Positions 15,044-49,400 of a stretch of DNA of 57,819 nt are shown here, one piece after another. Where the stretch lies: NCBI GenBank assembly GCA_022984795.1, contig JALIHJ010000079.1, positions 1-57,819 on the forward strand, read 5' to 3'. The number at the start of each line of letters is the position of its first letter. Positions within the stretch are counted from its first letter, which is position 1. The translations under genes and the position numbers were made by a program. The stretch comes from Fabrea salina. Lineage: Eukaryota > Ciliophora > Heterotrichea > Heterotrichida > Fabreidae. The notes under the pieces are model-generated. The model did not search any database. It saw only the letters and a list, made by a program, of their open reading frames with translations, and was not told the DNA's origin.

Positions 15044-18000
15044 ATGGAAGCGTTTGGGATTTACGAAGAAGACAATAACTTCTGGGACCAAGTTTCTTCG
15101 TCCCCCAGCGATGAACTCAAAACTGCTAGCGGAATAAGGTTTTTAAAGCTCCTGCTCTTTGAGACCCTAGACGTTTTAAAACCGATTCGCTCAAGCAGAC
15201 AAAAAGACCTTAAAATCAAATCAGGCATCTTCTGGACTCTACAGCTTATGCAGTACACAAGCCTTCTGTGGTACTGGGAAATGGAAATTCCAGGCTGGAG
15301 TTCTATAAGGTCCTTTTGGAAAGTTATTGGCTTTGCAAGATTTGACCTGGTTTTTTATGAACTAGGACTGATCAGCCACACCTTCTATTTCTTTGGGGGG
15401 CTGCTACTCCTGAACTTGGCTGTTTTTGCCTTTGCAGTAGTTAAGGTCTACCGCCAAAAACAAATAGGCAGGTTCTTAACGAAGAGAGTGTTAGGTTTTA
15501 CCTTAGGATTAGCTTATTTACCCATACTGACTCATTTCGCAGTAGTAACTAAGTGTGGTTTTTACGAGTGCGAAGAACTTTACGAGTACTTTGGAGAGCC
15601 AACAAGCACTATAGCTCCTAACTTGGTTAAGGGGTGCCTTTCTGTTGTGGGTATTCTAATTCTGACTTTACTTAAGTGCTTCTACTTAGTTCTTAACTTG
15701 AACCAAAACCCTTTTGTGGACAACTTGAACTCAGTTTCTTGTCTAAGCTTTTTGAGAGCAATGGAGCTGTGTGACAGTCTTTTTGTGATTTTGTTTGTGC
15801 TAGGAACTCCTTTTACACTTTACTACCTTTGCTTGTTTGGGATTTGCTGTGCTGCTTTACTGAGGACTCTTTACTACTTGCCTTTCTTCCAGGAATTTCC
15901 TAACAAAGGAGTTTCAGCTAAGTACTGTGTGTTTGGGTACCTGAGTTTAACCTTTTTAGTGTCAGACCACATAAACAGCTCTTCGTTAGTTATACTTTCA
16001 GTGCTGTTTGTAGTGCCTTTGTTGGTGTTTTTAAGCAAAATTGCGGTTGAAAAGCGCTTAGGTTTAACAAAAAAAGTTCCTTTGAGCAACTTGTGGAAGC
16101 TAGGTTCCTTTTTAGAGTTTGAGTTCCAAGTAAGGCCTTACATGCCACTAAATGCTCTTTATGACACCCAAACAGTACTAAAAGCACTATTTGGCTGCTG
16201 CACAAAAAGTAGCTTCAACAAAGAAAAAATGCTTCATATCTGGACCACTTACTACTGTTTTTACTTAGTAGGCAACTTAAAACTAGCTAAGTTAAAGCTG
16301 TCACAGTGCACAAACTGCAAGTCTAACTTCACAGACGACTACCAAGAATTCAAGTGCCACAAACTCTTTAAAGGCACTCGCTACAAAAAGTCAGAAGAAA
16401 TGAAAATGGTTAAAAGCATAATGCTTTCACAAAAGATTATCGGAAAAAACGAAGATTTCTGCAGTAAACTTCTAGAGTACTGGGCAGAGTTTTTGGTACC
16501 TAAGCCGTCCTTAAATAGACTTGAAAAACTTAATGCTTACTTAGTTGAAGAACTCAATAAACTCCTTTCAATGAACGAAAAAATCTTAGAAAAGTACCCT
16601 GAAAAAGTTAACACAATAAAGAACTTCATTGAGTTCGTAGATGACTTTATAATGGACGTTGACCTTAAAAACTACTACGTTAAAAAGTCAAATTTGAACT
16701 TAGAATTTGCTGATGACCTAAAAAACAAAGGCTTTTCTTTCAGGTCACCTGAAAATGGAATTATCGTAGTGGCTGGGGATGACTTAAACGTCAGCAAAAT
16801 AGTTTACGCTAACTACAATGCTTCTGAACTAATTGGACTGCCAGTGTCTGAACTCCTAGGACGCAGTATAGACGAGTTCGTGCCTCCTCCTTACAATTAC
16901 AACCACTTTGCTAAGCTGACTAACTTCCTCAGAAACACCCTAACTGCAAAAATAAACCTCCCTCAGAAATTCTTTTTAATGAAAAGCAGACAAGAGCTTT
17001 TGCAAGTGTCTCTGGCAATAAAAATTGTAGCTTTAAGCTCACACCCCTTTTTCGTGATTAGCTTTAAAAACTACGAAACTAACTCTGAAGTAGCTTTGGT
17101 TTCTGACTCTGGGTTGGTGCTGTGTCACTCTAAGTTTTTTAGAGAAAAACTGAATTTAAGGGAAACTGAGATAGTTGACTCATTTATTCAAAGTCACATT
17201 CCTAGCCTTGACTTAGAAAGGGTGTTTAGGCCTGTTGTTCACGATGACTTGCTAGTTATTCCACTCAAAGTTAGTGTTCAAAACAGAACTCTTTTAGGAG
17301 TCTTGTTGGTAGAAGACGAGGATGAAAAACTTGAATGGCTAAACAAAGATGAACAACACGAACTCGAAATGTCCTACTTGAAAAAGAAATCTTTAAACAC
17401 AGGCAGTTTCCAAGGAAAACTAAGCTACAGGGCTTTGAACGAGTCAGTTTCTAAAGTTCTAACTCACGATGAAATTGAACACGGCTCTTTGCCAGAAGAA
17501 CCTAAAGAAGAATCCAGTTCGACCAGTGCTCTTTGCTTCAGTCAAAACCACAGAGTGAAGCGGATCATTAAAAGAGGACTAGCTGCTATTAAGTTGTATA
17601 ACTGGAGCTTGTTTGTGTGCATCACAGTGGTTTTGCTGACCAACTGCGCTATAATTTTTTACATTTCTGATAAAGTAGCTGTTTCTGAAGAACTAGGTTA
17701 CTTAGAAGACTTTAGTTTACTCAGAGTAAACGTTATAGAAATAGCTGACAAAGTTAGAAAGGTCTACCAGTACCAGTTCTTGGGTTTAAGTGACCAGGAA
17801 AACCTAGCTAAGTTAGGCATCATAAGTAACTTTGAACAACTTGATGCGATCTTTAGTAAAATTGACCTTGAAGCTCAGTGGATACAGTGTGAGGAATCAG
17901 CAGAGTTCACTAAAAGGGTGCCTATTCATAGGAACTACCTTAACCCTGAGTTTATTTACGACAACCTTTTAAACTCCCTAAATACTTACTCAATGCACAC

Positions 18001-19135
18001 CAAAGCAATTCTAGAGTCTACTCAAAGCACCCAAGCGCTAACAGAGAGTTACTTCTACGTTGTGGTAAATGGAATGCAAACCATGAGTAGCTACCTTACA
18101 AATAGTTTACAGGTGTTTGTTGAGTGTGAGCAACAAAAAGTAGAAAGTCTTGATGAATACGTAACCTGGTTGTTAGTTTTGGCAATAGTAGTGCTTTTGG
18201 TGTGCTTTGGAATGCTAGTGTGGAACTCTACTGTGATTAACAACAAAATGCACGAACTATGGAACCTTTTAAGGTTTCAGGTTTTTGAAAACTACAGCTT
18301 TCTAAGACTAGCTGCTTCTAAAAGGGTTCCAGACTTCAATGAAGGCCCTAGGCCTAAGCAAATACAAAAACTCAACTTCAAAAAGAGTTTGCCTTTTACA
18401 AAGCGTATACTGCTTTTCATTGGAGTTTCTTCTGCTTACTACTTGGTGGTTTATTTTGTGATTTACAAGAATTCTTACAAGTTGCTTTTAGAGAAGCCTG
18501 AGTATCTTAATGACTACCAAAAGCTCCAAGGAGAAATAGCTACAGTAGGCTTTTGGAGCAGAGAGAACTTGTTCAGTTACCAAAAGAACTTAACACTCAG
18601 CAGTTTATTTAGAAACGCTGACTTCTTTAAAGACCCTGAAATAGAATATACTGCTATTGCTGAGCTAGTTAGGTCTGAAGTTAAAACTATCAGAGAAAAC
18701 AGTTTTACCTCAGAAGTGTCTGAGCAAACCAAACAACTACTTTTTGAGAAAACAAGCTCAAGTAACTACGGCTACCTAAACAGTGTACTGCTTTACCTCT
18801 ACGAAACTAGTTACTTCACTCAAGGAACTCACAACCTGCAGACTTTCTACTACTTAGAAACTATGTATGAAAACATCAAGTCAAACACTGCTTACGTCAA
18901 AGAACTCATAAACCAAGACATTTCAAACATGATTGGTTACCAAATGACTTGGCTTATAGTCTGTGCAGTATTGTACTCAGTTTGCATAATCCTGATGTAT
19001 GTCTTGGTTTTCAGACCTTTTTTAAAACAAGAAACCAAAAAACTACTGAAGCTCCAAGAAATAGGCGTCTTAGTTCCTTCAGGCAAGAAGCCCCAAACCA
19101 CCCAAAGATCTGACATAGAAACCGTTTTAGGTTAA
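15044..19135 (+). CDS. Giant multi-pass membrane protein with TPR-like region and PAS domain (TmcB-like family), paralog 3
   Basis: 1,363 residues, in the opposite orientation to the other two copies. It has the same order: about eight N-terminal helices, a TPR-like helical region with CTNCKSNFTDDYQEF, and a PAS domain around 565-620 (IVYANYNASELIGLP, then DEFVPPPYN). A second PAS-like segment, a serine-rich linker and four C-terminal membrane helices follow. It resembles paralog 1 more than paralog 2 (WYWEME, NYLNP and EKPEYL are shared or nearly so), so paralogs 1 and 3 probably split last. The start lies in GGAATATATATGG. The stop is 19 bp from the convergent HEATR6-like stop. A sensory role is inferred from PAS plus membrane topology. 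Confidence 0.93.
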   Translation: MEAFGIYEEDNNFWDQVSSSPSDELKTASGIRFLKLLLFETLDVLKPIRSSRQKDLKIKSGIFWTLQLMQYTSLLWYWEMEIPGWSSIRSFWKVIGFARFDLVFYELGLISHTFYFFGGLLLLNLAVFAFAVVKVYRQKQIGRFLTKRVLGFTLGLAYLPILTHFAVVTKCGFYECEELYEYFGEPTSTIAPNLVKGCLSVVGILILTLLKCFYLVLNLNQNPFVDNLNSVSCLSFLRAMELCDSLFVILFVLGTPFTLYYLCLFGICCAALLRTLYYLPFFQEFPNKGVSAKYCVFGYLSLTFLVSDHINSSSLVILSVLFVVPLLVFLSKIAVEKRLGLTKKVPLSNLWKLGSFLEFEFQVRPYMPLNALYDTQTVLKALFGCCTKSSFNKEKMLHIWTTYYCFYLVGNLKLAKLKLSQCTNCKSNFTDDYQEFKCHKLFKGTRYKKSEEMKMVKSIMLSQKIIGKNEDFCSKLLEYWAEFLVPKPSLNRLEKLNAYLVEELNKLLSMNEKILEKYPEKVNTIKNFIEFVDDFIMDVDLKNYYVKKSNLNLEFADDLKNKGFSFRSPENGIIVVAGDDLNVSKIVYANYNASELIGLPVSELLGRSIDEFVPPPYNYNHFAKLTNFLRNTLTAKINLPQKFFLMKSRQELLQVSLAIKIVALSSHPFFVISFKNYETNSEVALVSDSGLVLCHSKFFREKLNLRETEIVDSFIQSHIPSLDLERVFRPVVHDDLLVIPLKVSVQNRTLLGVLLVEDEDEKLEWLNKDEQHELEMSYLKKKSLNTGSFQGKLSYRALNESVSKVLTHDEIEHGSLPEEPKEESSSTSALCFSQNHRVKRIIKRGLAAIKLYNWSLFVCITVVLLTNCAIIFYISDKVAVSEELGYLEDFSLLRVNVIEIADKVRKVYQYQFLGLSDQENLAKLGIISNFEQLDAIFSKIDLEAQWIQCEESAEFTKRVPIHRNYLNPEFIYDNLLNSLNTYSMHTKAILESTQSTQALTESYFYVVVNGMQTMSSYLTNSLQVFVECEQQKVESLDEYVTWLLVLAIVVLLVCFGMLVWNSTVINNKMHELWNLLRFQVFENYSFLRLAASKRVPDFNEGPRPKQIQKLNFKKSLPFTKRILLFIGVSSAYYLVVYFVIYKNSYKLLLEKPEYLNDYQKLQGEIATVGFWSRENLFSYQKNLTLSSLFRNADFFKDPEIEYTAIAELVRSEVKTIRENSFTSEVSEQTKQLLFEKTSSSNYGYLNSVLLYLYETSYFTQGTHNLQTFYYLETMYENIKSNTAYVKELINQDISNMIGYQMTWLIVCAVLYSVCIILMYVLVFRPFLKQETKKLLKLQEIGVLVPSGKKPQTTQRSDIETVLG

Positions 19136-26928: not shown

Positions 26929-27486
26929 TTAAAAAGCCCAAATTTTTGGGCAATCTGTGTGGTCAGTGTGCATCATCATGTCTCTGGGAATTCCAGTACG
27001 AGCTTCAAGTTTCTGGATGAGAATATCAGGGTCTACAGAGTCAATTTCCCTTTCAAGAACCCAAGCGTAGTGCCAGTGGAACAAACCCATGCTACTGCAA
27101 GTGTACATCACAGCATACTTGTCGTAGTCAGTTTCTAAGATTTGGTACTGACTTTTAGGCCAATAGTTCGAAAAAGACACGTGGCAGGTTGCTTCGCCCT
27201 TGTCGCAGTACCCATTGCCGTGGATTGAGTGCCATTCACCGTCCCTCACTTCGATGATTCCCATTTCAAAGACGTTGTCTTGTTTGCGGGTGAACTGGAA
27301 CTGGTCACACTTGCCTTCTTGAGCATATACAGATTTAGGCCTGGCAGCTTCGTACCAGAGTCCCATGAACTTGTCGAAGTTAAAAGAAGTCTCCACTAAA
27401 GGAGCAGGACAAGTTCCCCAAGAAAAGATTGCAAAAGAACCTTGACTCAAGCAGCCTAGGAGTATACACAAATGTATCAGCTTCAT
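26929..27486 (-). CDS. Secreted lipocalin (apolipoprotein D / bacterial Blc type)
   Basis: 185 residues. A signal peptide (about 1-19, MKLIHLCILLGCLSQGSFA) is followed by a lipocalin barrel. The first conserved region is FDKFMGLWYEAARP (GxW at 42-44); later strands include QYQILETDYDKYAVMY and WVLERE. Six or more cysteines suggest disulfides in a secreted or lumenal protein. Lipocalins carry small hydrophobic ligands; the ligand here is unknown. The start faces the NDR kinase gene across 165 bp. Confidence 0.9.
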   Translation of the reverse strand: MKLIHLCILLGCLSQGSFAIFSWGTCPAPLVETSFNFDKFMGLWYEAARPKSVYAQEGKCDQFQFTRKQDNVFEMGIIEVRDGEWHSIHGNGYCDKGEATCHVSFSNYWPKSQYQILETDYDKYAVMYTCSSMGLFHWHYAWVLEREIDSVDPDILIQKLEARTGIPRDMMMHTDHTDCPKIWAF

Positions 27487-30678: not shown

Positions 30679-31605
30679 ATGAAAAAGGTCCTCAGGAGTG
30701 GCCAAGAAATTCCTTTGGTGGCCTACGGCACTTTTAAAGTACTAGGCGAGCAAGTAGCTCCTTGCTTAGAAGAAGCCCTTAAAGTGGGTTACCGACACAT
30801 AGACACTGCCTCTATGTATCATAACGAAAAAGAAATCGGCGACTACCTGCAACAAAAGCTCACTAAGGGCGAAATAACTAGAGAAGAACTGTTCATCACT
30901 AGCAAGGTCTGGCCTAGCCAGTACCGAGACATAAAACAAGCTTGTTTGAATTCTTTAAGTCGTTTGCAACTTGACTCTTTGGACCTTTACTTGCTGCACT
31001 GGCCCATAGCTTTTAAGCCCAACCAAGACCCCCCTGTTTACGAACCCAGTCCAGAAAACGCCCAAAACATTGACAGGATTCCTCTGCATGCTGTTTGGAA
31101 GCAAATGGAGGAACTTGTGTCTTTGGGGCTGGTTAAAAACATAGGAGTTTCTAACTGGACCATAGCTCAGCTCCACGACATGCTGAGCTTTGCAGAGATT
31201 CCTCCAGCTTGTAACCAGTTCGAGACGCATCCTTACTTCAAACGAAAAGAACTTGTAGACTACTGCAATTCCAACCACATCGTTCCTTTTGGCTACAGAG
31301 TGATTTTCAAGCCTCCTGACGAGCCCAGGTACACCTTCAAAGACTCTGCAATGGACGACCAAATGATTTCAGAAATAGCTGAAAGGCACGGAAAAACTCC
31401 AGCTCAGGTAGTTATTAACTGGAACTTACTTAGGAACTGTGGGTGTGTGCTTAAGTCAGTGACTCCAGCTAGAATTAAAGAGAACTTTGACTCACAGAGC
31501 TTCCAGTTAACTCAAGAAGACACCCAACAAATAGACAACATCCAAAAAGAAGGAAGTTTTATGAACATTTACAACATGTTTGGCATTGACCTTTTTAAGG
31601 TTTAA
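30679..31605 (+). CDS. Aldo-keto reductase
   Basis: 308 residues, a (beta/alpha)8 barrel NADPH-dependent oxidoreductase. The catalytic tetrad is visible: Asp42, Tyr47 (RHIDTASMYHNE), Lys76 (ITSKVWP) and His107 (LLHWP). LVKNIGVSNW and LKSVTPARIKENF are family signatures. The stretch after strand 7, normally AYSPLG, reads PFGYRVIFKPPD here, so cofactor or substrate contacts on that loop may differ. The substrate cannot be predicted. The start is directly preceded by ACTTATAAT. Its TAA stop shares bases with the convergent transporter stop (31602-31605 is TTAA). Confidence 0.93.
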   Translation: MKKVLRSGQEIPLVAYGTFKVLGEQVAPCLEEALKVGYRHIDTASMYHNEKEIGDYLQQKLTKGEITREELFITSKVWPSQYRDIKQACLNSLSRLQLDSLDLYLLHWPIAFKPNQDPPVYEPSPENAQNIDRIPLHAVWKQMEELVSLGLVKNIGVSNWTIAQLHDMLSFAEIPPACNQFETHPYFKRKELVDYCNSNHIVPFGYRVIFKPPDEPRYTFKDSAMDDQMISEIAERHGKTPAQVVINWNLLRNCGCVLKSVTPARIKENFDSQSFQLTQEDTQQIDNIQKEGSFMNIYNMFGIDLFKV

Positions 31606-33377
31606 TAATTATGGTTCAGGAAAAGGTCTGCTTCTTTGTTGTGGGGTTTTTTCTTTTCAGGAACAAACAAAAACACAAGGTAGCCTAGTATTATCACTGA
31701 AAAAGCAACTAAGGCCATGTAAAACCCTAAAAGGTGAGCTATGGCCCCCCCTAAGAGCGGTCCTAGTATGTTGCCTAGTGCGTAACTCGAGTTAAAAATA
31801 GCGTAGATTTCGTCATAAGTTGCACTTTCAACCTTCTTCACAGAGTCAGCTAGCTCAGGCAAAGTAGGCACCATCACTAAAGCCGAAGCCGCGCCTACAC
31901 ATACCAAGCACACTGTTTCTAAAAATAAAGACTCAGGCACAAACACCATAGGCAACAACAAACACATACCTACTAGTCCTAAAGTAATCACAGGGCGCCT
32001 TCCAGCTTTATCAGAGACCTTCCCAGCTACTGGAGAAACCACGCCAAAAGCAACCACCACCAAAGCAAACACCAGTCCCATTCCTAAAGGACTCAAAGAA
32101 TGCTTGTTCTGAAGTATCAAAGGAACAATGGGCTCTAGCATAGTTAAACTTGCAGACCCAATAACTATCACTCCAGTAATCTGAATGAACTCCAGTCTAA
32201 TTAAACTTGCGTCCTGGCTGAAACTGGCTTTTTTGTGTTTGGACTCTTCTAATAAAAAGTACACTAAAGCTGCTTGTAGAAAACAAAAAACACTTCCTAC
32301 TATAAACGGAAAGGAGTAACCAACCCAAGAATATAAAACCCCTCCCAAAGGCGGACCTAAAAGCATCCCCAAACCACTCCACCCCGTAACCTCGCCTAAA
32401 ACTTCCCCAAGAGTAGACTCCGGAGTTAAGTCACTTAACAAAGCTAAAGCTGGAGTGAAGTTAGCTGAAGCTGCTAGTCCTTGCAAAAGCCTTGAAAATA
32501 CCAAACCTTCAACACTAGACGCCCCAGCAAACATCAGAGTTGAAGTTCCCAGCATTAAGCTTCCACCAAGCATCACCTTGACCCTTCCAAAGGTTTCCTA
32601 AGTAAAGCTTACTGAGAGTCTAGCAAACAAAGAAGAAGAAACCAGTATGGCAAAAGCATACGAAGAAAATATAACCCCCAAAGAAAAAGAAGAAGCTTGG
32701 AGTTCAGAAGCATAGGAAGGCAAAATAAGCACTGCTAGTCCGTAAACTACTTGACCGTTAGTCATCAGAACAGTTACAACTGTTTTAGAAACAGTTCCGA
32801 GTTCTTTAGGTTTTTTGGTCTCAGCAGTTAAAGTAGGCACTACCAACCAAAAAACCAAAGATATCAAAGTAAACTCTAGTAAGTGCAGTGCCAAAATAGG
32901 CTCTACTTCTCCTAAGCTGTAACAGATTGCTAAGCGAGTCACTGCTTTGATAGTTGAGGACAAAAAACTAAAACCCCAAAAAAAGTAAAGCTGCCAACTG
33001 CGTGAAAGGAACCTAGTTTCTTCTACGTAAAGCAAACCACTGCTTAAGAACCAAGCTAAAGCTTGAGTCAAGGCGTAGTATAAAGTCACAGGCTTAACAG
33101 CCAAAAGCAACAACTGCAGCAAAGGAAGCACTCCTACCAACCCACACACTGCAATTAAAGACTTGGTTTTTTTGGACAAGCTGTGGTTGTCTTTGAATTG
33201 AACCAAAGCAGGACAAAGCCTTGAAAGCGAAGTAAATATAAAAATAGTAGAGGGCACAGAAGTCATGAACAGATCTTCCAAACACATAGTGTACACAAAA
33301 GTTTTGTCCTCAAACAGCCCAGCAACTTCGGGTTCTATGGGCGAGATTCTGCACAAAGCAAATATATTCTTTTCCAT
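31602..33377 (-). CDS. TMD0-like domain fused to a major facilitator superfamily transporter; one 15-nt intron
   Basis: 586 residues after removing a 15-nt intron (32598-32612). Start chosen at 33375-33377; the frame runs further but into the divergent gene. Residues about 1-183 carry about five membrane helices with wording like the TMD0 of ABCC transporters (SVPSTIFIF, then LLYVEETRFLSRSW, LYFFWGF). A short charged linker TAETKKPKELG (184-194) follows. Residues about 196-586 are a twelve-helix MFS fold. It contains motif A (ARLS joined to ETFGRVKV across the intron), FSRLLQGLAAS, the LLGPPLGGVL glycine/proline motif and a second motif A-like VSDKAGRRPVI. The MFS half resembles drug/proton antiporters and vesicular amine transporters. 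The fusion is unusual. Stop TAA overlaps the aldo-keto reductase stop. Confidence 0.88.
32598..32612 (-). other. 15-nt spliceosomal intron
   Basis: On the minus strand the sequence is GTAAGCTTTACTTAG, exactly 15 nt, with GTAAG at the 5' end and TAG at the 3' end. Without splicing, its last codon is an in-frame TAG that cuts the transporter in two within motif A; with splicing the frame is restored as ARLS-ETFGR. Fifteen-nt introns are known from heterotrich ciliates. It is the only one in the window I can prove, since 15 nt is a whole number of codons and others could hide in frame. Confidence 0.95.
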
Positions 33378-33396
33378 TCTTAAGTTTATGGTAAAT
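33378..33396. promoter_or_regulatory. 19-bp divergent start-to-start gap
   Basis: TCTTAAGTTTATGGTAAAT separates the divergent ATGs of the TMD0-MFS gene and the tail-anchored protein gene. Any bidirectional core promoter must fit here or lie within the coding sequences. Confidence 0.55.
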
Positions 33397-33828
33397 ATGA
33401 ACAACCAAAGAACTACTCCTAAAAGGTCTTCTTTCTTACAAAAAGTCAGGGCTTCCAGAAGTCCTAATCTTTCTTTTGAGTCTTCTCTAGACAAAATGCC
33501 CTCTGAAAACCTAGTTAAGTCTGAAGTCCAACCAGAACACTCCAAAGAAACTGAGTCTGAGCCTTCAATTCACTCTTTGCTTCAACAAGCTACAGAAGAA
33601 ACTGAAGAGCAAACTCAAACTACTCTTGAAAACGAGACCACACTCAACCATGACAACTCTAAAGAAAAAACACTGCACATAGAAATCCCTACCCAAGAAC
33701 CTGATCAAAACGAAGAAGCTCAAAAGTCCAGCAGGGAGAAGTTAAAAGCATTTGCAATTACTCTCCCGATTTTAACTGGGATTAGTTTAGGCGCGTTTTA
33801 CCTCTTAAAAAAGTCAGGGAAAATTTAG
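33397..33828 (+). CDS. Unknown tail-anchored membrane protein
   Basis: 143 residues from the ATG at 33397 (in GGTAAATATGAAC); an upstream ATG at 33265 would overlap the divergent transporter start. The N-terminus is basic (MNNQRTTPKRSSF), then a long acidic, Glu/Thr/Gln-rich disordered region. One C-terminal membrane helix (FAITLPILTGISLGAFYLL) is followed by KKSGKI. A single terminal helix with a short basic tail suggests insertion into the mitochondrial outer membrane or ER. No family recognised. Stop TAG. Confidence 0.75.
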   Translation: MNNQRTTPKRSSFLQKVRASRSPNLSFESSLDKMPSENLVKSEVQPEHSKETESEPSIHSLLQQATEETEEQTQTTLENETTLNHDNSKEKTLHIEIPTQEPDQNEEAQKSSREKLKAFAITLPILTGISLGAFYLLKKSGKI

Positions 33829-33949: not shown

Positions 33950-36061
33950 ATGGAAATAGGACGAAATGGAAAAGTCAGAAGTTTTACTCTGAAAGATATG
34001 ACTCCCCTTGCTTTACTGTTTGGAGTGCAGCTCATCATAAGCAGCAAGGGAACTACCAACACAGTTATGTTCGAATCCTTTTTGATTTGTTCGATAGTGT
34101 GTGCTCCACTTCTTGTATTTTTTATCAACTTCACATTAATCTCGAAGAAGAATCTAAGAACTATCTATTTGGAATGCATTAATACTTTGTTCAGCTTCTA
34201 CTTTGCTTACTTTTACAAGAGTTTCAAAAGTTTGTACATTTTACTGTCTTCAGCAGTAGTTTATAAGCTTGAAATGGACACAGTGAGCAAAGACTCGCTT
34301 AGGAGCTTCTTAGTTTTGAAGCACTTGGCTGTCTGGTGTTTCTTAGATGTGCTATCGAGCACTCAAAGCATCTACACCACTTTGTTATTGCTTAACGGGG
34401 CTTGGCTCATAGTGCTGCTGATAGGGGACAAGAATTCTGATAGCAAAGCTATGCGAAAAAAGCTCATGAAGAAGGCCAAGCAATTTGCCAAAACTCTGAA
34501 CTCAATACCTGACTCCTTGTCTGTGGTGAGCAAAGAAGGAAAAATACTGTGCTGTAACGAGGAACTACTGGGAGCTCTAGGAATCACCAATACTGACTAC
34601 AACTATGAAGATAAGGTACTAACTGAACTACAAAACATCCAGTACATCGAGTCTAAGAACCTCTACTACGAGTACTCAAGCAACTTATACGAAGACGTAC
34701 TGCACTTCATCAAGGAGTCTGAGGAAGAATTCGCTATGTTCGGCCAGTCCAAAATAGGCGAGAAAACCTACGAGTGGAAAGGTAAAAAGATTGAGTGGCA
34801 TAATGAACTGGCAGTGTTAGTTGTGGCAACAGACATAGGTCAGTTACTACTTTTGGAAAAGTCACTAAAAGAAAATGAGTATAAGTCACACATACTTAGA
34901 ACAGTTTCACACGAACTTAGAAGTCCCACTAACGGAATCCTAGGTAACTGCCAGCTACTCAAAATGACCTGTGAAAAAAAACTTAACGACAAGTGCAAGA
35001 AGTGGTTGAACAGTGCCATCATATCTTGCAAGCACTTACTTGTACTCATCAATGACTTAGTAGACTACTCCCAAATGGTGGCAGGTACCCTAAGGTTGTC
35101 TTTCAGACCAATAAGTTTCGACGAAATAGCCAACGAAACCCTGAGTATGATAGACTCAGTCATACACGGAAAAAACATAGAACTTAAGTACGTCAAAAAA
35201 ACACCTATACCGCCTGTTGTGAAATCTGAGCCCGACAGACTCAAGCAAGTCCTTATGAACCTACTCAACAACGCTTCTAAGTTCACAGTAAGTGGGTTCA
35301 TACACTTAGTTGTTAAAGAAGAACACGGAAAGCTCAAGATCAGTGTAAAAGACTCAGGAATAGGCATCCCTGAAGAAAAACAGACCCAACTCTTCACACT
35401 ATTTGGGCGGGTTGATGACTACTCAGAGTTGAACCCTCAAGGGTGTGGGTTGGGACTTTACATATCGAACAAACTAGTTCAGCTCTTAGGAGGGAACGGA
35501 ATAGGCGTTAAGTCTGTTCCTGGAAAAGGCTCTTGCTTTACGTTCAGCTTGCCAATTAAGTCTTCTTCTGACTCTCCGCTTTTAGAAGAAATCTGCGAAA
35601 AGTTCATTTCAGACTCAGAGCTAAGCTTGCCCCAAATAACGACAAAGTCTTTTCCAGACCTAAGAAACCTTACTGTGAAAAAAGAAGTTTTGGTAGTGGA
35701 TGACTCTTCTTTTAACAGAGACGTTTTGGTAGAACAACTGAACTACTTGAAAATAGAAGCTGATACTGCTAGCTCAGGAACTGAGTCTATTTCAAAAGTC
35801 TCACAGAAAGACTACGACTTGATACTTATGGACTGCGAAATGCCTGACTTAAGTGGGTGGGAAGCCACAAGCCAAATAAGAGAACTTTTTTTAACAAAAA
35901 GAATTCCCAAAATGCCTGACATAATAGCATGCACGGGCTTCAACGCTTCTGACTGTGAACAAAAATGTTTGGATTGTGGAATGAAAGGAATCATAGTGAA
36001 ACCAGTAGCTATAGAAGACCTTAAAGAAATCTTGGAGAGATCGTTCAACGCCCAGTTCTAA
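33950..36061 (+). CDS. Membrane-bound hybrid histidine kinase
   Basis: 703 residues. About five to six membrane helices (20-160), a PAS-like segment (about 180-300), then the HisKA dimerisation domain with the H box TVSHELRSPTNGI (His321). HATPase_c follows, with N box LMNLLNNASKF (436-446), G1 DSGIGIP (468-474) and G2 GCGLGLYI (498-505). A C-terminal receiver domain starts near 578: acidic pair at Asp584-585, phospho-acceptor Asp628 in LILMDCEMPDLSG, Thr662 and Lys684. All catalytic residues are present, so it should autophosphorylate and pass phosphate to its own receiver. Eukaryotic phosphorelays normally continue through an HPt protein and a response regulator, neither seen in this window. 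Such kinases are common in ciliates; the signal is unknown. Confidence 0.95.
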   Translation: MEIGRNGKVRSFTLKDMTPLALLFGVQLIISSKGTTNTVMFESFLICSIVCAPLLVFFINFTLISKKNLRTIYLECINTLFSFYFAYFYKSFKSLYILLSSAVVYKLEMDTVSKDSLRSFLVLKHLAVWCFLDVLSSTQSIYTTLLLLNGAWLIVLLIGDKNSDSKAMRKKLMKKAKQFAKTLNSIPDSLSVVSKEGKILCCNEELLGALGITNTDYNYEDKVLTELQNIQYIESKNLYYEYSSNLYEDVLHFIKESEEEFAMFGQSKIGEKTYEWKGKKIEWHNELAVLVVATDIGQLLLLEKSLKENEYKSHILRTVSHELRSPTNGILGNCQLLKMTCEKKLNDKCKKWLNSAIISCKHLLVLINDLVDYSQMVAGTLRLSFRPISFDEIANETLSMIDSVIHGKNIELKYVKKTPIPPVVKSEPDRLKQVLMNLLNNASKFTVSGFIHLVVKEEHGKLKISVKDSGIGIPEEKQTQLFTLFGRVDDYSELNPQGCGLGLYISNKLVQLLGGNGIGVKSVPGKGSCFTFSLPIKSSSDSPLLEEICEKFISDSELSLPQITTKSFPDLRNLTVKKEVLVVDDSSFNRDVLVEQLNYLKIEADTASSGTESISKVSQKDYDLILMDCEMPDLSGWEATSQIRELFLTKRIPKMPDIIACTGFNASDCEQKCLDCGMKGIIVKPVAIEDLKEILERSFNAQF

Positions 36062-37492: not shown

Positions 37493-40400
37493 TTAGAAAA
37501 GTATGAAGAATAAGAGTGCTTGCACCAGAATGCTAGCGAGTGAACTGTCTTCTTCTTCTTTCAAGTTGTAGAAGTCTGCGTTGTATATCTTCTGCACGCA
37601 CTCGTCGTTGTCGATGAAGCGAGGGTACTCTGTGTAGTTCAGAGCTATCAAAGCGTACTTGTACTTGTCTTCGCCAGAGTCACTTGCTAAGTCAATGTAA
37701 CATTGCTGGGAGAACCTTCGGTAGGTCTGGCACACTGTTTGGTTCTTGTTGTAAATACTAGTAGCTAACTCAATGAACTGCTGCCCTGGCTCGTCTCCAG
37801 GCATAGGTTTGCAGTAAGCAGCTCCTTTGTTGTTGTAGCCACACACACACTCTCCAGGGAAGGATTCTCCTTTAGAGTTAGTTCCAATGCAGTCATCTGA
37901 GGTGCCGCACTCTTTGGGTAAGTAGTCTAGTTTAGGGGCCTCTGTGCACCTACCTTCCCCATTGTTGTTGTAACAAGCTCCTGATTTACAGAACATCGAG
38001 AATCCTGACACAGGGCATGATACCATGTCTCCATCTTCGAGTGAGAAGTAGTGTGTGCACACATAGTTTCCTTGACTCTGCATGTTGCATCCCATGTAAC
38101 TTTGACACTCGTAGTCATTAGTGCATGTGCTTCCTTCTTCTTTTAGTTCAGTGCATTTTTTGTTGAGGCAGTAAAGTCCAGGCCCACACTGGCTTTCAAC
38201 ACAGAGTTCGTCCTTTCCAGCGCCTTGGCATTTGTCGTTAGAGCACTTTCCGTAGAAGCAATCTCCGTCTTCTTTGCAGGGTTCTCCTGGGTAGTTCTTA
38301 ACTGCAGCTGGTTCTTTGCATTCAACATTGGGCTTGCCTTTTACGGCTTCAGTGGGGTCGCAGTACTTGTTATTTGAGCATGCTTGTAAGTCAAACATGT
38401 AGTTGCTTCCGTCGTATTTAATGCACACGTTTTCCTGGGAGATGTTGTCAGAGCATCCGTACTTAGGACAGTCGAACATCTGGGGTTCTACTAAGAAGTA
38501 GTCAGGGTTAAGGATCTCTTGTGTGCAAACTGAGTTGTCTATAAATCTTGGGTTATCCAAAGACTTAAGGTGGTTCTTTACGAAGTCATATATTTCTGAA
38601 GGTTCAGAAGTATGCTCGAAGCACCACTCACTGTACCTTGCTTCAGTGTGGCATTTGAAAATACCTTTGCTTGTAACGTGTTTTTGAAGTATGCTTTTGT
38701 AGTTTATGAATGGAGCGTCTCCAGACCAAGCGTGGCAGTAAGAGTCTCCGTTAGGGTTCATTCCGCAGGCACAAGGACCTTTCATTTCTCCATTTGTGTT
38801 GTTAGCAACGCAGTCTGAGTTGTCTCTGCAAGGTTGTTCAAGAAGATTGCGGCTCTTAAAAGCGTCTTGGCATCTTCCTATGTTAGAGCTGCCAGGTGCG
38901 ATTCTGCAACTCTGCGTTTCACAGAGTTCAGAAATGCCTTCTGGGTTGTGGTTGTTGCTTACTGCGTAGCTACAGTCGTGGACAGTCTTTCCTGATTCAA
39001 CAGAGAATAGTCGGGTGCATCTTCCGGGGTATTTCTTATCTCCGTTACACTTAAGGTTGTTCTGGCACATGTGAGTGTCAGTGCATTGGCCTCCTTCACC
39101 TACTTGAAGAGTGCAGATTCCGTTGCAGTACATTCCTACGTCACAGTCAGTGTTTTTGGAGCATGTCTCTCCTAGTTGGTTTGCAGAACACCTTCCAAGC
39201 ATGCATTTATTTGACATGCACTGAGAATCAGCAAGGCATGGCTCTCCTGGGTATTTTTCTTTTGGACTGAGAGGGGGCTCAGCTACGCATGTTGCTGTTT
39301 GATTGACTTCCTTAAAGTCGCAGTAGGGTTGTGAATCCAAGGTACAAGCTTGAAGTAAGTAGTTGTTGTCTTTTTTCTCGTAGCAAATGTCATTATCTAG
39401 GTCTGAGCAAGTGTAGGTTGGGCATTGGGGTTCTGGTTCTGGTAAGTTGTTCCAGTACTCTGAAGTGAAAGTAGTCTTCACGCATTTATCGTTGTCGATG
39501 ATCAGTGGATGCATGAAGAACTTCAGGTAAGAGTGGTAGTAGTAGTTGGGGTCTTTATCTAAACCTTCAGCTACCATCTGCATGCAATTTTTAGAGTACC
39601 TTCTAGTAGTCTGGCACCTAGCTATCAGGTCGCTCTCATAAAGCTGAGTGGCATTTTGTAACCACTCTTGTCCAGAAGAGTCTCCTACAAAGGCACTGCA
39701 GTAAGATTTGCCCTCAGGGTTGTAACCACAAGTACACTCTCCTACAAAATTGTAGGTTTGGCTGTTCTCTACAATGCAGTCATTGGAAGTAACACATTCC
39801 TTTTGCTCGCTGGAAGACTGAGGAGCATCAGTACAGAAACCCACAGCTCCCTGACTGTAACAGGCACCTGACTTGCACATGGTGTTGTAACCAGAGACTG
39901 GACAGACTACTTGTTGTCCGTTGTTGACTGAAAAGTACTCCACACAAGTTCCTTCAGAAGAAGAAGTAGCACTGCAGGTGGCTTTTGTAACACACTCAAA
40001 CTCACTCGTGCAGGATTCATTTATTTGCTTTAGAGGTTGGCATGTTTGAGACGAATCGCAGTAAAGTCCAGGATTACATTCGCCCATTTCTGAACAAGAT
40101 TGTCCTTGAGTCTTTCCACTGCATGTATTACCCAAACAATTTCCATATTTGCAATCAAAGCTACTATCACACATTTCACCAGGATAAGCTAAGTCAAGAG
40201 GAGGTGCTCCTCCACAAGACTCTTGAATGTACTCGTTTGCTACTGCTTTGGTCCAGTCACAGTATTGTCCACCTGAGCACTGTGAGATGTTGAACAGGTT
40301 CTGGGCAGAGTTGAAGGAGATGCAGGTAGAGCTAGACTGGCCTGAACAGGTGTAAGCTTTGCACTCATAAAGGGAAGGTTTTTGTTCGTAGTAGTGCGAA

Positions 40401-43400
40401 TTGAAGATCTCTTGGGTGCAGATAGCATTGTTTTGGTAACGAGCTGAGTGCTGAGACTCAATGCTGAGTTTAGTGTAGTTGCTAACTTCACTAGGCTTTA
40501 AGTTCTGTTGAAGGCAGAAGCTTGAGAACCTTCTGTGAGTGTGGCAGAGAACAGTGGCATCAGTTGCTAAGTGGGTCTTCAAAAGACTTCTAGCTTGGAC
40601 GTAGGGAGGATCGCCTGAGAAGGCATCACAGTATTTGAAGCCGTCAGTTCCTAGTGAGCACTCACAGGAGCCTTCCTTTGAGTTACCGCCGCCTGTTCCA
40701 ATACAGCTAGAGTCGTCAATACAAGTTTTGGGGTAGGTGCTCAACTTCAAGTTCTCTTGGCACATTCCAGTTTTGGGGTTGCAGCTTCCTGAAGCGCAGA
40801 GGTCTGAGTGTCCTTCGTTGTTGAAGTTTGCTTGACATACTCCAACTAATTGGCCGTTTTCTATGGAGTAGTAAGGAATGCAAGTACCAGGTTCAGTGGA
40901 TGTTTTGTTGCAGCCCAAGTGGTTTTCACAGTCGTACTCAGAAGTACACATTTCTCCTTCTTGTTTCTGAGCTGCACAAACAATTCCGTCACAGTAAAGT
41001 CCTACGTCACAGTCTGAGTCGTGGTCACAAGAACTTGCAATGGGCTGGCCTTGGCATTTCTGAAGCACACAGACTCCAGACAAGCAATCTAGGTCAGATA
41101 AACAAGGCTCTCCGGGGTAGTTTTGGGGAGAAGCAGGGTGGGGTTCAGGTGCACAAGTAGAGTTGCTAGAAGCAGGAGGACAGTAAGGAGCAGAGGGGTC
41201 ACTGCAGGGGTCTAGGATGTAATTTCCGTTGTTTGTCTGTTCAATGCACTGATCTCCTAAAGAGTCTGAGCAAGTGTAGGTTGGGCATTCAGGCTGAGGC
41301 TTAGGTTTATTATTCCAGTACTCTGAGGTGAAAGTAGTCTTCACACAGTCGTCATTGCCGATGATTAGAGGGTGCATGAAGAACCTTAGGTAAGTGCCAT
41401 AGTAGTAATTAGGATCTTTGCTTGAAAGTTTAGCTACCATTTGCATGCAGTTTTTAGAGTATCTTCTACTAGTTTGGCATTTTTCAATAGAGTTGCTGGC
41501 ATAAAGTTCATCTGCATTTTGTAACCACTCTTGTCCAGAAGAGTCTCCTACAAAGGCACTGCAGTAAGATTTGCCGTCAGAATTGTAACCACAAGTACAC
41601 TCTCCTACAAACTCTTGGTTGTTGTTAGTCACAATGCAGTCATTGGAAGTAACACATTCCTTTTGTTCACTGGAAGACTGAGGAGCATCAGTACAGAAAC
41701 CCACAGCTCCCTGACTGTAACAGGCACCTGACTTGCACATGGTGTTGTAGCCAGAGACTGGACAGACTACTTGTTGTCCGTTGTTGACTGAAAAGTATTC
41801 CACACAGGTTCCTTGGTAAGGGTCAGTTGTAGCGTTGCAGGTGGCATGGGTAGAGCATTCAAACTCACTTAGACAGAAGTCTCCAGGTTGTTTGAGAGGC
41901 ACGCACTCTTTGACTCCGTCAGCACAGTAAAGTCCAGGATTACACTCTCCCATTTCTGAACAAGATTGTCCTTGAGTCTTGCCTTGGCAGATACCTGACT
42001 CGCAGTTTCCATATTTGCAGTCAGAGCTACTATCACACATTTCACCAGGATAAGCTAAGTCAAGAGGAGGTGCTCCTCCACAAGACTCTTGAATGTACTC
42101 GTTTGCTACTGCCTTAGTCCAGTCACAGTATTCTCCACCTGAGCACTGTGAGATGTTGAACAGGTTCTGGGCAGAGTTGAAGGAGATGCAGGTAGAGCTA
42201 GACTGGCCTGAACAGGTGTAAGCTTTGCACTCATAAAGGGAAGGTTTTTGTTCGAAATAGTCGTTGTTAATAATTTCCCGAGTACACTTAGCATTGTTTT
42301 GGTAACGAGCTGAGTGCTGAGACTCAATGCTGGATTGAGCATAAAGAACCATTTCTTGAGAGTCTAAGTTCTGTTGGAGACACAGAGTTGAGAACCTTCT
42401 GTGAGTGTGGCAAAGAACAGTGGCATCGGTTTTCAAGTGAGTCTTCAAAAGACTTCTGACATTAACATAGGGAGGATCGCCTGAAAAAGCATTGCAGTAC
42501 TTGAATCCATCCATTCCTGCTCCACAAAGACAGCTTCCTTCTTCTATGTCATTGAGGCTATTAGAGCCTAGACAATTATAATCATAGTTGCAAGTTTTGG
42601 GGTAAGTGTTTGACTTCAAGTTCTCTTGGCACATTCCAGTTTTAGGGTTGCAGCTTCCTGAAGCGCACAGGTCTGAGTGTCCTTCATTGTTGAAATTAAC
42701 CACACAGATTCCCACTGGTTGACCATCGGAGATGGTGTAGTAAGGAATGCAAGTACCAGGTTCAGTGGATGTTTTGTTACAACCCAAGTGGTTTTCACAG
42801 TCGTACTCAGAAGTACACATTTCTCCTTCTTGTTTCTGAGCTGCACAAACAATTCCGTCACAGTAAAGTCCTACGTCACAGTCTGAGTCGTGGTCACAAG
42901 AACTTGCAATGGGCTGGCCTTGGCATTTCTGAAGTGTACAGACTCCAGACAAGCAGTCGAAATGGGATAAACAAGGCTCTCCGGGGTAGTTTTGGGGAGA
43001 AGCAGGATGGGGTTCGGGCTCGCAAGTAGAGTTGGCTTTAGAAGGACAGTAAGGAGCAGATGGGTCAGTGCAGGGGTCTAAAAAGTAATTTCCTTTGAAC
43101 TGCTCATAACATTCATCTCCTATTTTATCTGAGCAAGTGTAGGTTGGGCACTGAGCAATAGGCTCAGGCTCTATGAAGTTGTCCCAGTACTCTGAGGTGA
43201 AAGTCTGTTTCACGCAGTCGTCGTTGTCGATGATTAGAGGGTGCATGAAGAATTTCAAATAAGAACGGTAATAGTACTTAGGGTCTTTGCCTGAGAAAGT
43301 TGATACAATTTCCATGCAGTTTTTAGAGTACCTTCTAGTAGTCTGACACCTAGCTATCAGGTCGCTCTCATAAAGCTGAGTGGCATTTTGTAACCACTCT

Positions 43401-46400
43401 TGTCCAGAAGAGTCTCCTACAAAGGCACTGCAGTAAGATTTGCCCTCAGGGTTGTAACCACAAGTACACTCTCCTACAAACTCTTGGTTGTTGTTAGTCA
43501 CAATGCAGTCATTGGAAGTAACACATTCCTTTTGTTCACTGGAAGACTGAGGAGCATCAGTACAGACACCCACAGTTCCTTGACTGTAACAGACACCTGA
43601 CTTGCACATGGTGTTGTAACCAGAGACTGGACAGACTACTTGTTGTCCGTTGTTGACTGAAAAGTACTCCACACAAGTTCCTTCAGAAGAAGAAGTAGCA
43701 TTGCAGGTGGCTTTTGTAACACACTCAAATTCACTCATGCAGCGTCCACCTATGTCCATTAATCGCTGGCATTTCTGGATTCTATTCGGACAGTAAAGTC
43801 CAGGATTACAATCTCCCATTTCTATGCAAGATTCTCCTTCTTTTTTGCCTTCACAAATCCCTTCTACGCAGTTATCGTGTTTACAATCAGAATCGGTGTT
43901 ACAAAGTTCACCAGGATAAGCTAAGTCAAGAGGAGGTGCTCCTCCACAAGACTCTTGAATGTACTCGTTTGCTACTGCTTTGGTCCAGTCGCAGTATTGT
44001 CCACCTGAGCACTGTGAAATGTTGAACAGGTTCTGGGCAGAGTTGAAGGAGATGCAGGTAGAGCTAGACTGGCCTGAACAGGTGTAAGCCTTACACTCAT
44101 AAAGGGAAGGTTTTTGTTCGTAGTAGTTGCTGTTAAGGATCTCTTGAGTACACTTGGCATTGTTCTGATAACGAGGTGAGTGTTGAGATTCCATACTAGA
44201 TTTGGTGTAGTTAACGATCTGCTGAGGAGTTAAGTTCTGTTGAAGACACAGAGTTGAGAACCTTCTGTGAGTGTGGCAAAGAACAGTGGCATCGGTTTTC
44301 AAGTGAGTTTTGAATAAATCCTTGGCATTTAAGGAAGGAGGATCGCCTGAGAAGGCATTGCAATACTTGAAACCATCAGTTCCAAATCCACAATCACAAG
44401 AGCCTTCTTTCAGCAAATCATCGCTGTTCTTAGCTAAGCAGTCAGAGTCTTGGTTGCATGTTGTGGGGTATTTTATAGATTCAAATGAAGGCTGGCATAC
44501 TCCACCTTTAGGCCACCAAGTTGAGTCGGGTTTGCAGCTTCCTGAAGTGCAGAGGTCTGAGTGTCCTTCGTTGTTCTGTGTGGCTGTGCAAATTCCCACT
44601 GATTGACCGTTTTCTATGGAGTAGTAAGGAATGCAAGTACCAGGTTCTGTGGATGTTTTGTTACAGCCCAAATGGTTTTCACAGTCGTACTCAGAGGTAC
44701 AAGTTTCCCCTTCTTGTTTCTGGGCTGCACAAAGAACTCCGTCACAGTAAAGTCCTACGTCACAGTCTGAGTCATGGTCACATGGGTTTGCAATAGCTTT
44801 GCCTTGACATTTCTGAAGCACACAAACTTGAGACAAACAGTCGAAATTGGATAAACAAGGCTCTCCAGGGTAGTTTTGTGGGAAAGGCGGTTGAGGCTCG
44901 GCCTCACAACTAAAGTTTCCAAGATGAGGGGGGCAGTAAGGTGTAGAAGAACCGCTGCAGGGGTCTAAGATGTAGTTGCCGTTGTTTGTCTCTTCAATGC
45001 ACTGATCTCCTAAAGAGTCTGAGCAAGTGTAGGTTGGGCACTGATCAATAGGTGCAGGTCCGACAACATTATTCCAGTACTCTGAGGTGAAAGTAGTCTT
45101 CACACAGTCGTCATTGCCGATGATTAGAGGGTGCATGAAGAACCTTAGGTAAGTGCCATAGTAGTAACCAAGTTCTTTTCCTGAAAGAGCTGCCATAAGT
45201 TGCATGCAGTTTTTAGAGTATCTTCTAGTAGTCTGACACCTAGCTATCAGGTCGCTCTCATAAAGCTGAGTGGCATTTTGTAACCACTCTTGTCCAGAAG
45301 AGTCTCCTACAAAGGCACTGCAGTAAGATTTGCCCTCAGAGTTGTAACCACAAGTACACTCTCCTACAAACTCTTGGTTGTTGTTAGTCACAATGCAGTC
45401 ATTGGAAGTAACACATTCCTTTTGTTCACTGGAAGACTGAGGAGCATCAGTACAGACACCCACAGTTCCTTGACTGTAACAGGCACCTGACTTGCACATG
45501 GTGTTGTAACCAGAGACTGGGCAGACTACTTGTTGTCCGTTGTTGACTGAAAAGTACTCCACACAGGTTCCTTGGTAAGGGTCAGTTGTAGCGTTGCAGG
45601 TGGCATGGGTAGAGCATTCAAACTCACTTAGACAGAAGTCTCCAGGTTGTTTGAGAGGCACGCACTCTTTGACTCCGTCAGCACAGTAAAATCCAGGATT
45701 GCACTCTCCCATTTCTGTGCAAGATTGTCCTTGAGTCTTGCCTTCACAAATTCCATCAGTACATTTACCGTGTTTACAATCAGAATCGGTGTTACAAAGT
45801 TCACCAGGATAAGCTAAGTCAAGAGGAGGTGCTCCTCCACAAGACTCTTGAATGTACTCGTTTGCTACTGCTTTGGTCCAGTCACAGTATTCTCCACCTG
45901 AGCACTGTGAGATGTTGAACAGGTTCTGGGCAGAGTTGAAGGAGATGCAGGTAGAGCTAGACTGGCCTGAACAGGTGTAAGCTTTGCACTCATAAAGGGA
46001 AGGTTTTTGTTCGTAGTAGTGCGAATTGAAGATCTCTTGGGTGCAGATAGCATTGTTTTGGTAACGAGCTGAGTGCTGAGACTCAATGCTGAGTTTAGTG
46101 TAGTTGCTAACTTCACTAGGCTTTAAGTTCTGTTGAAGGCAGAAGCTTGAGAACCTTCTGTGAGTGTGGCAGAGAACAGTGGCATCAGTTGCTAAGTGAA
46201 TTTTGAGTAAAGCTTTGGCATTGATATAGGGGGGATCGCCTGAGAAGGCATTGCAGTACTTGAAGCCGTCAGTTCCTAGCCCACATTGGCAGGTTCCTTC
46301 TCTGAACGAAACATCATTGCTGCCTAGACAATCAGAGTCTTCATTACAAACTTTGGGGTATTCACTGTTTTGCACACTTTGTTCACATATCCCTGGACCA

Positions 46401-49400
46401 GAGCTAAGCGGTGTTAGGGGGTTGCAGCTTCCTGAAGCGCACAGGTCTGAGTGTCCTTCATTGTTGAAAATGGAAATGCATAACCCAATAGGTTTACCGT
46501 TTTCTATGGAGTAGTAAGGAATGCAAGTACCAGGTTCAGTGGATGTTTTGTTGCAGCCCAAGTGGTTTTCACAGTCGTACTCAGAAGTACACATTTCTCC
46601 TTCTTGTTTCTGAGCTGCACAAACAATTCCGTCACAGTAAAGTCCTACGTCACAGTCTGAGTCGTGGTCACAAGAACTCGCAATGGGCTGGCCTTGACAT
46701 TTCTGAAGTGTACAGACTCCAGACAAGCAATCTAGGTCAGATAGACAAGGCTCTCCAGGGTAGTTTTGGGGAGAAGCAGGGTGGGGTTCAGGTGCGCAAG
46801 TAGAGTTGGTAGAAGCAGGAGGACAGTAAGGAGCAGAGGGGTCACTGCAGGGGTCTAGGATGTAATTGTTGGCACTGGTTTTTTCGATGCACTGATCTCC
46901 TAAAGAGTCTGAGCAAGTGTAGGTTGGGCACTGAGGTTCAGGTGTGGGGTTAGGAATAGTGTTCCAGTACTCTGAAGTGAAGGTTTCTTTGGTGCAGTCA
47001 TCATTGCCGATGTATAGTGGGTAGGAAGTAAAGTTCAAGAAAGCATTGTAGTAAGTAAAGTGCTCTTTTCCAGAAAGAACAGCAACGACAACTAAGCAGT
47101 TTTTAGAGTACCTCCTAGTTGTTTGGCAAGTTTTAATGTGATCTCCAGTCATGAATTGCTTAGCGTAGTCTAGGTACTTGACTCCAGGCTCGTCAGCTGC
47201 ATGAGCTGCACAGTAAGACTGACCCTCACTGTTGAAGCCACACATGCACTCCCCAGGGAAGTTTTCTCCGTCCTCGTTAGAAGCTGAGCAATCGTCTGAG
47301 ATCAGACATTCTTTGGCGAAGGACTTTGAAGTTGGTGCCTTAGCGCAGTAACCAGTAGTTGAGTTTCCAGGGTTGAAACAAGTTCCAGTTTCGCAGTAAT
47401 AAGAAAACCCAGACTTAGGACAAGGCACTTCTTGGTTGAGTTTCATTGAGAAGTAAGGCTTACAGGTTCCACTTCCACTGTTGAGTAAGCAGAAAGTGTT
47501 AGGAACGCAATCGTAGTCATTAGAACAAGTTTCGTCAGCTCTTCTGAGGGAGTTGCAGATTCCTTGTCTGCAGTAAAGTCCTACATTGCACTCCTCAGAT
47601 TTAGAGCACTTGTCAAACTTAGCTTTGCCTTCGCACTTTCCTAAAACACAGTTTCCATAAACACACTCGGAGTCACTAGTGCAGATTTCTCCAGGGTATG
47701 CTTGGTTCTTTGGTTCTTGAGAACTGCACTCTACCTTCAAGTAGGGGTTGTCTGTTGCGTACTCATAGTCACAGTACTCGTTTTGGCCACATTGACCAAT
47801 CTCAAACATGTTGCCAGTAGAATTGAACCCAATGCACACTCCTGAATCAACTTGGCCACAACCGTACTTTTTGCATCTGAACTTTTCAAGTGTCAGAGAG
47901 GAATAGTCGTAGTTGATGATTTGGGCAGTGCATTTTTCGTTGTCGCGGTACCTAGGAGTGTCTATCTTGAGATACTCGTTTCTGAAGTAATCATAGGCAT
48001 AGTTGAAGCGAATGTTCTGGCTCATGCACCACTCACTGAGTCTTTGGGTGGTGTGACAGTTGTCAATTCCACTGTTTCCAAAGTGGAGTTTGAGTTGGGA
48101 CCTTGTGACTTGGGAAGGTTCATCTCCAGAGAAGGTGTTACAGAAACTAAACCCATCTTTGTTCATTCCGCACTCGCACGAGCCCATTAAAGTTTTGTTC
48201 TCGGAGTCAGTGGCTATGCAGTCTTCGTTTCTGTCACAGGTGTGAGGATAAGGGCCGTCTAGTTCGTACTGAAGAGTACATATGCCGATAGTAGAAGGTC
48301 CTGGAATCTTTTTGCAACTTCCAGTTTCACAAAGGTTGGAGAACCCTTCTGGAGTTTTGAAACCCATGCAGTCGTTTACAGTTTCGCCTACTTCGAAGCT
48401 GAAGTACTTAACGCACATTCCAGACTGTCTTGAAGTAGCATTGCAGGCGTACATGTTTTGGCACTCAAAGTCATCTTTACAGGTTTCGCCCTCTGCAAGT
48501 TGTTGTTGGCATTTTCCTAAACTGTTGCAGAATAAACCTACGTCGCAGTGGGAGTTCTCTGAACAAGAAAAGCCTTGAAGACTTCCTTTGCACTTCCCTG
48601 ACAAGCAAACTCCTGAGATGCAGTTAGAGTCTCCGTAACAAGGGTCTCCAGGGTACTTGGTGTTGTTGGCTGGCCAAGGCCACTCCATGCAGTAAGCACT
48701 TTGGTTCAGAGCTTTATAGTCACAGTAAGGCTTGTCGGCACTGCAGATTTCTAGTTCGTAGTTTTCGTCGTGAGGAGAGAAACAAAGGTCTCCAAACAGG
48801 GGCTCGCAAGTGTAGGTTTTACACTCAGGTGCAGGATTAGGGTCGTGTTTGTTTTCCCAGTACTCCAAAGTAAAGGTGTCCTTCACACAGTCTTCGTTGT
48901 CTTGAATCAGGGGGAAGAAGTGGTAGCCGAGGTAAGCTCCGTAGTAGTAAGTAGCGTTTTCTCCTTGAGTAGCAGCAACAATCCTCATGCAGTTCTTGGA
49001 GTGTCTGCGAGTGGTTTGGCAAATTTTCATTTCTTTGCTTTGGTAGAGTTCTTTGGCCCTAGTGACCCACTCCAAACCTGGACTGTCTGCTGGGAAAACA
49101 CTGCAGTAAGACTGCCCTGTAGGGTTATAGCCACATGTGCATTCTCCGTAAAACAGTTCTCCTTTTGAGTTAGTTCCTGAGCAGTCGTTTGAGGTTTCGC
49201 AAGCAAACGGAGTAGTTCCGTTTGTGACTGGGGACTTTGTGCAGTAACCTATTTCTCCATTGCCGTTGTTGTAACAAGTAGCTGACTCACACATGTCGTT
49301 ATAGCCTGACTTAGGACAAGGCACAGAGTCTCCTTCTTTGACTGAGAAGTAACTGATGCAAGTGCCCTGGTAAGGGTTGGTAGTTACGTTGCAGGTTGCT

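Follow-up and report, generated by a model that had tools for sequence, protein, structure and literature searches.

An SLC18-like MFS transporter with a TMD0-like N-terminal domain encoded by a single gene of the ciliate Fabrea salina

TMD0 is known as an accessory N-terminal domain of ABCC transporters, and we know of no studies of its function other than inside ABC transporters. A gene of the heterotrich ciliate Fabrea salina raises the question of whether such a domain can also stand ahead of a carrier from a different superfamily. The gene lies in a window of 57,819 nucleotides (the whole stretch of DNA analysed here, contig JALIHJ010000079.1 of assembly GCA_022984795.1), and an earlier note made from these letters had read it as a five-helix, TMD0-like domain followed by a complete MFS transporter. 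Here we ask whether the two parts belong to one product, what kind of carrier forms the second part, and how far the first part can be traced to TMD0. The features of the gene are collected in Table 1.

Table 1. Features of the fusion gene, with window coordinates and the evidence for each
Feature	Coordinates	Strand	Basis
Whole gene, two exons, 586 aa	31602..33377	-	Translation, codon usage, Met positions
TMD0-like domain, residues 1-183, five predicted spans	32829..33377	-	PF24357 TMD0_ABC 22.3 bits; YCF1 similarity
Cys9 codon, close to where TMD0s have their N-terminal Cys (Cys6 to Cys13)	33351..33353	-	Cys positions
Cys32 codon, at the invariant Cys starting TMD0 helix 1	33282..33284	-	Five-sequence alignment
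Trp134 codon, at the invariant Trp of TMD0 helix 4	32976..32978	-	Five-sequence alignment
Short basic linker, residues 184-198	32784..32828	-	4 K/R in residues 181-200
Exon-1 part of MFS transporter, from about residue 196	32613..32792	-	MFS_1 and SLC18B1 matches
15-nt intron with in-frame TAG	32598..32612	-	Stop position, long flanks, gapless VMAT2 alignment across the junction
Exon-2 part of MFS transporter, SLC18-like	31605..32597	-	MFS_1 2.3e-50; VMAT2 1.8e-25, exon 2 alone

The gene runs on the minus strand from an ATG at 33377 to a TAA that ends at 31602, with 255 residues encoded by exon 1 (33377-32613) and 331 by exon 2 (32597-31602). The frame stays open where the N-terminal domain passes into the MFS part, with no intron at the domain join, and the gene is a single-frame fusion of the two parts. 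The proposal of one continuous frame, interrupted solely by the intron at 32598-32612, was thus borne out, and the domain limits given with it were right. No other ATG precedes the start codon within the ORF. Met codons then follow at residues 31, 38 and 205, with none between 38 and 205. Met205 sits within the predicted first MFS span; an MFS-only product started there would miss the beginning of that span and is therefore less likely. On a codon usage scale built on ten other window genes, which themselves score 0.049-0.185, the N-terminal part scores 0.162 and the MFS part 0.113, both fitting the window's other genes; in the remaining five frames the N-terminal part gives 0.003-0.063. Read with the standard code, the long ORFs of the window stay open for up to 4431 codons, and the stops of 14 window ORFs checked were 12 TAA, 2 TAG and no TGA.

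The intron reads GTAAGCTTTACTTAG (32598-32612) and contains an in-frame TAG. No other 15-nt GT..AG stretch of the window encloses an in-frame stop and is flanked on either side by 60 open codons or more; the actual flanks here are 319 and 331 open codons. This count alone is no evidence for an intron, since GT..AG gave one case and each of seven decoy end pairs between 0 and 4. The place of the stop tells more: when 15-nt removals were surveyed for all 256 pairs of end dinucleotides across the whole window, this TAG was the unique site at which a removal drops an in-frame stop between flanks of at least 200 open codons each. Of the 15 removal positions possible there, one is GT..AG. The intron-free protein aligns with VMAT2 without a gap across the exon junction. 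In Blepharisma stoltei, introns are reportedly 15 and 16 bp for the most part (PMC9942806). We regard the 15-nt intron in the MFS half as well supported by its place and its long flanks and as short of proven, a word used in the earlier note that is too strong for a call made from the genomic sequence.

Around the fusion gene, the window holds a varied set of neighbors. An aldo/keto reductase gene lies tail to tail with it, the two having four bases in common (31602-31605). At the other end, a small ORF on the opposite strand, 33202-33828 (+), overlaps the beginning of the fusion gene; if it started at its Met at 33496, the two would be 118 bases apart. The gene at 33950-36061 (+), which is divergent from the fusion gene, encodes a hybrid histidine kinase with a receiver domain and a hydrophobic region before it (HATPase_c 1.1e-23, Response_reg 7.4e-23, HisKA 2.6e-11). 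One ORF of 4431 residues, with many Cys near its beginning, occupies 37496-50788 (-). At E up to 0.01 it has three matches in Pfam, none of them convincing; the best, DIP2311-like_C, is above the cut-off with no single stretch passing. Upstream of it, at 50999-54567, are ORFs in shifting frames, one of which shares the CPTYTC motif. Three ORFs of 1348-1402 residues at 4287-12544 (-) and 15023-19132 (+) may be paralogues; two of them weakly match TmcB-type TPR and two weakly match PAS. In addition, 26932-27486 (-) encodes a lipocalin with a signal-like start (Lipocalin 2.2e-8). A Pfam scan that covered 20 other window ORFs, all but some small ones, found no ABC gene near the fusion gene.

The second part of the protein is an MFS transporter, as had been proposed, and can be named more precisely as an SLC18-like carrier. 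The full-length protein matches MFS_1 with 185.9 bits (E = 1.3e-54, in two stretches), above the cut-off of 33.4. The best MFS_1 stretch begins at residue 212 and the SLC18B1 match at residue 209, and the start at residue 196 was set by eye. In Pfam, the transporter core matches MFS_1 and no ABC family, and no ABC core or nucleotide-binding domain was found. A search of solved structures placed VMAT1/2, SLC18B1 or VAChT in the best 17 of the 33 matched sequences, with VMAT2 at 1.4e-30 and SLC18B1 at 7.4e-23, followed by NorA at 4.6e-9. In the VMAT2 alignment, the carrier keeps R189 and E312 of VMAT2, as Arg291 and Glu410. Unlike in VMAT2, K138, D399 and D426 are replaced by Tyr240, Met497 and Asn524, and D33 falls on Gly208 in an alignment made by hand. 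D33, D399 and D426 are the amine-site acids of VMAT. Since these acids are missing, the reading of VMAT-like amine transport was dropped, and the substrate is probably not a VMAT-type monoamine. The protein also differs from VMAT in having no large luminal loop after MFS helix 1, and from SLC18 proteins, which are not known to carry one, in its extra N-terminal domain.

The evidence on the N-terminal domain begins with Pfam. Residues 1-183 match PF24357 (TMD0_ABC) with 22.3 bits (E = 1.6e-4), residues 1-194 with 21.0 bits (E = 4e-4) and residues 21-183 with 20.1 bits (E = 7.7e-4), the match running from residue 23 to 147 on model positions 14-144 of 159. No other Pfam family was reported when residues 1-194 were searched at E up to 1, nor for residues 1-183 or 21-183 with the limit raised to 10. 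Longer queries score lower: exon 1 gives 16.9 bits (E = 0.007) and the full-length protein 16.8 (E = 0.008). Even the best score stays below the curated cut-off of 27 bits, and because that cut-off was tested and not reached, we do not grant the domain membership in PF24357. The TMD0s of MRP1, YCF1, MRP2 and SUR1, each confirmed against a PDB chain, gave 39.6, 167.7, 67.7 and 14.2 bits on the same model; the genuine SUR1 domain is thus likewise under the cut-off, and 20-22 bits fall within the range of genuine TMD0s. At E up to 10, TMD0_ABC was matched by none of ten composition- and topology-keeping shuffles and by none of 13 membrane proteins from E. coli; one soluble protein was also negative. 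One of the ten shuffles matched PMP22_Claudin at E = 3.3e-4, so with any family allowed, an E-value near 3e-4 is not unusual for a sequence of this composition. The TMD0_ABC value has force only because the family in question, TMD0, had been named before any search. The TMD0-like identity proposed earlier therefore stands insofar as TMD0_ABC is the only family matched, and falls short in that the score is under the curated threshold.

Pairwise alignments point to one TMD0 in particular. Against YCF1, the nearest of the four tested, the domain gave Z = 4.9 in a global alignment with BLOSUM50, with 5 of 20,000 topology-keeping shuffles as good (8, 4 and 2 in the other three settings). For MRP2, 660 of 20,000 shuffles were as good, and for MRP1 (5317 of 20,000) and SUR1 (2462 of 20,000) the pairing was not significant. 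The best of the four TMD0s tried was equaled by 14 of 20,000 shuffles (26, 10 and 4 in other settings) and the scores summed over all four by 2 (2, 11 and 0). We also compared the domain with 154 control segments, six from the protein's own MFS half and the rest from 28 E. coli proteins put through a hydrophobicity filter. No segment equaled the domain against YCF1, in raw score or in Z. Against MRP2, five reached the Z and none the raw score; for MRP1 the raw score was reached by 8 and the Z by 36, and for SUR1 by 23 and 24. As a yardstick, YCF1 aligned in both directions gives Z values of 2.3-2.6 with MRP1, 2.8-3.0 with MRP2 and 1.7-1.9 with SUR1, so the domain is nearer to YCF1 than these three accepted TMD0s are; MRP1 and MRP2 reach 12-13 with each other. 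Support for TMD0 rests mostly on YCF1, and since the PF24357 model also favors YCF1, the Pfam and pairwise results are not independent of each other.

Small profiles did not separate the domain from shuffles. On an HMM of the four TMD0s the domain scored 3.0 bits, a value reached by 177 of the 2989 shuffles reported (3000 were made), and its reversed sequence scored 3.7 bits. With hhalign, the domain gave 2.2%, in a further run 3.7% with all four TMD0s, and 43%, 1.4%, 0.9% and 4.3% when MRP1, YCF1, SUR1 or MRP2 was left out. Genuine TMD0s left out in turn gave 45.3 bits (MRP1), 31.7 (MRP2), 11.3 (YCF1) and -0.5 (SUR1) on the HMM and 95.8%, 92.1%, 4.6% and 1.5% with hhalign; because genuine YCF1 and SUR1 also come out low, these profiles are not sensitive enough for TMD0s at the distance of these two. 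Structure prediction was equally uninformative. AlphaFold run without an alignment gave helices in a low-confidence model of the N-terminal domain (pLDDT 51), and Foldseek returned 71 matches for this model, none at E<=0.001 and no ABC transporter among the best 50 of the 71. For the full protein (pLDDT 41), the MFS half was not folded either, and since that half is certain, the lack of a TMD0 fold match says nothing. A search of solved structures by sequence with exon 1 gave no match at E up to 10. Scans of viral and genome contigs, which reach close relatives only and in sets not meant for eukaryotes, gave no relative of either exon, and blastp against window ORFs of at least 100 residues found no paralogue of either (best other E 0.37).

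Individual residues, and perhaps the charges, are consistent with a TMD0. Six residues are invariant among the domain, YCF1, MRP1, MRP2 and SUR1: Cys32, Trp134, Met1, Asp24, Leu84 and Leu178. Cys9 has counterparts in Cys6 of SUR1 and MRP2, Cys7 of MRP1 and Cys10/13 of YCF1, so the domain carries the Cys/Cys/Trp pattern common to these four, with a Cys near residue 9, a Cys at the start of helix 1 and a Trp in helix 4. The two cysteines may be disulfide-linked in some ABCC proteins. The charge bias would also fit the N-out/C-in orientation of an ABCC TMD0: with limits set by hand, presumed inner stretches hold ten K+R (loop 1 four, loop 3 two, linker four) and presumed outer stretches four (N-terminus three, loop 2 one, loop 4 none). 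The topology we infer from this bias, N-out and C-in, would place the MFS N-terminus in the cytosol, as MFS proteins need. At a hydropathy threshold of 1.2, spans 2 and 5 are clear, spans 1 and 3 are weak with few residues, and span 4 stays below.

About 15 residues separate the last TMD0-like span from MFS span 1. In ABCC proteins TMD0 is accompanied by L0, which is longer than this linker; judged by that expected length, there is no room here for an L0 or lasso. A TMD0 acting in this protein would thus act without L0. In position the domain resembles an ABCC TMD0, being N-terminal, ahead of a transporter core and of five predicted spans; it differs in that the core is MFS instead of ABC TMD/NBD, in the missing L0 space and in its score under the cut-off. 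A second system with a five-span N-terminal unit on a transporter, there serving in targeting, is the TMD0 of ABCB6 and HMT-1 (PF16185, MTABC_N; PMC4410673, PMC6077975). Unlike these, the domain has no PF16185 match at E up to 1 or 10. The YCF1 and SUR1 TMD0s do cross-match PF16185 below its cut-off, SUR1 scoring better there than on PF24357.

How else could the N-terminal domain have come about? The five spans could be an unrelated, lineage-specific extension that is TMD0-like in topology and composition, in which case the fusion would be real and the ABCC link would not. The subthreshold TMD0_ABC score, the shuffle that reached a similar E-value with another family, the MRP1 and SUR1 pairings and the failure of the four-sequence HMM all fit this explanation. 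We nevertheless consider it unlikely: a single family, named beforehand, was at stake and neither the shuffles nor the real membrane proteins matched it, the similarity to YCF1 was rarely equaled by shuffles and never by control segments, and the Cys-Cys-Trp pattern is present. The extra spans could also stem from MFS helices of the same protein through partial duplication, in keeping with the frequent duplication or gain of spans in MFS proteins. The domain aligns with its own MFS half at a Z of only 1.1, with 276 of 2000 shuffles as good, and an MFS repeat of five spans would be odd; this origin is weakly refuted, and we give it very little credence.

It is also highly improbable that the locus makes two products, a small TMD0-like protein and an MFS protein started internally, or that the fusion is an artifact of an assembly join. 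Met205 could in principle start an MFS product, and the evidence is the sequence of one genome. Against this stand the open, intron-free frame across the join, the gap in Met codons ahead of Met205, the damage that a start there would do to MFS span 1, and codon usage that is consistent in both halves.

Thus, the N-terminal domain is probably a divergent homologue of TMD0, common descent being what we infer from the similarity to YCF1, the family match and the shared residues. The joint reading, in which a relative of the YCF1/MRP-type TMD0 and an SLC18-like MFS carrier form one protein and the module targets or docks the carrier, is the one toward which we lean, with reasonable but far from full confidence. 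MFS transporters usually have 12 spans, and the gene would give a protein of probably 17, five TMD0-like and 12 MFS. The TMD0-like module would start with a luminal or outer N-terminus, cross the membrane five times and end in the cytosol, where the basic linker of about 15 residues would join it to the MFS part. The module may steer the carrier to an endolysosomal or granule membrane or dock it to a partner, and the MFS half would carry out proton-coupled transport of a substrate that is probably no VMAT-type amine. Such a role is suggested by analogy with the extensions of Ycf1, MRP2 and ABCB6. The TMD0 of ABCB6 folds on its own, is not needed for catalysis and is crucial in lysosomal targeting (PMC4410673). 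In Ycf1p and MRP2, the N-terminal extensions play an important part in trafficking (PMC6077975).

A wider reading can be offered more tentatively, with slightly less than even confidence: that a YCF1-like TMD0 was transferred to a ciliate proton-coupled MFS carrier, where it would be a portable targeting or docking module without L0, and that TMD0 is not confined to ABC proteins. None of the papers listed in searches of the open literature describes a TMD0-MFS fusion in its title or abstract opening. If true, a natural fusion of this kind would present the module separated from ATP hydrolysis and from L0, and would allow a direct test of whether TMD0 by itself serves in targeting or partner binding. 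It would also suggest that the module may move between transporter families.
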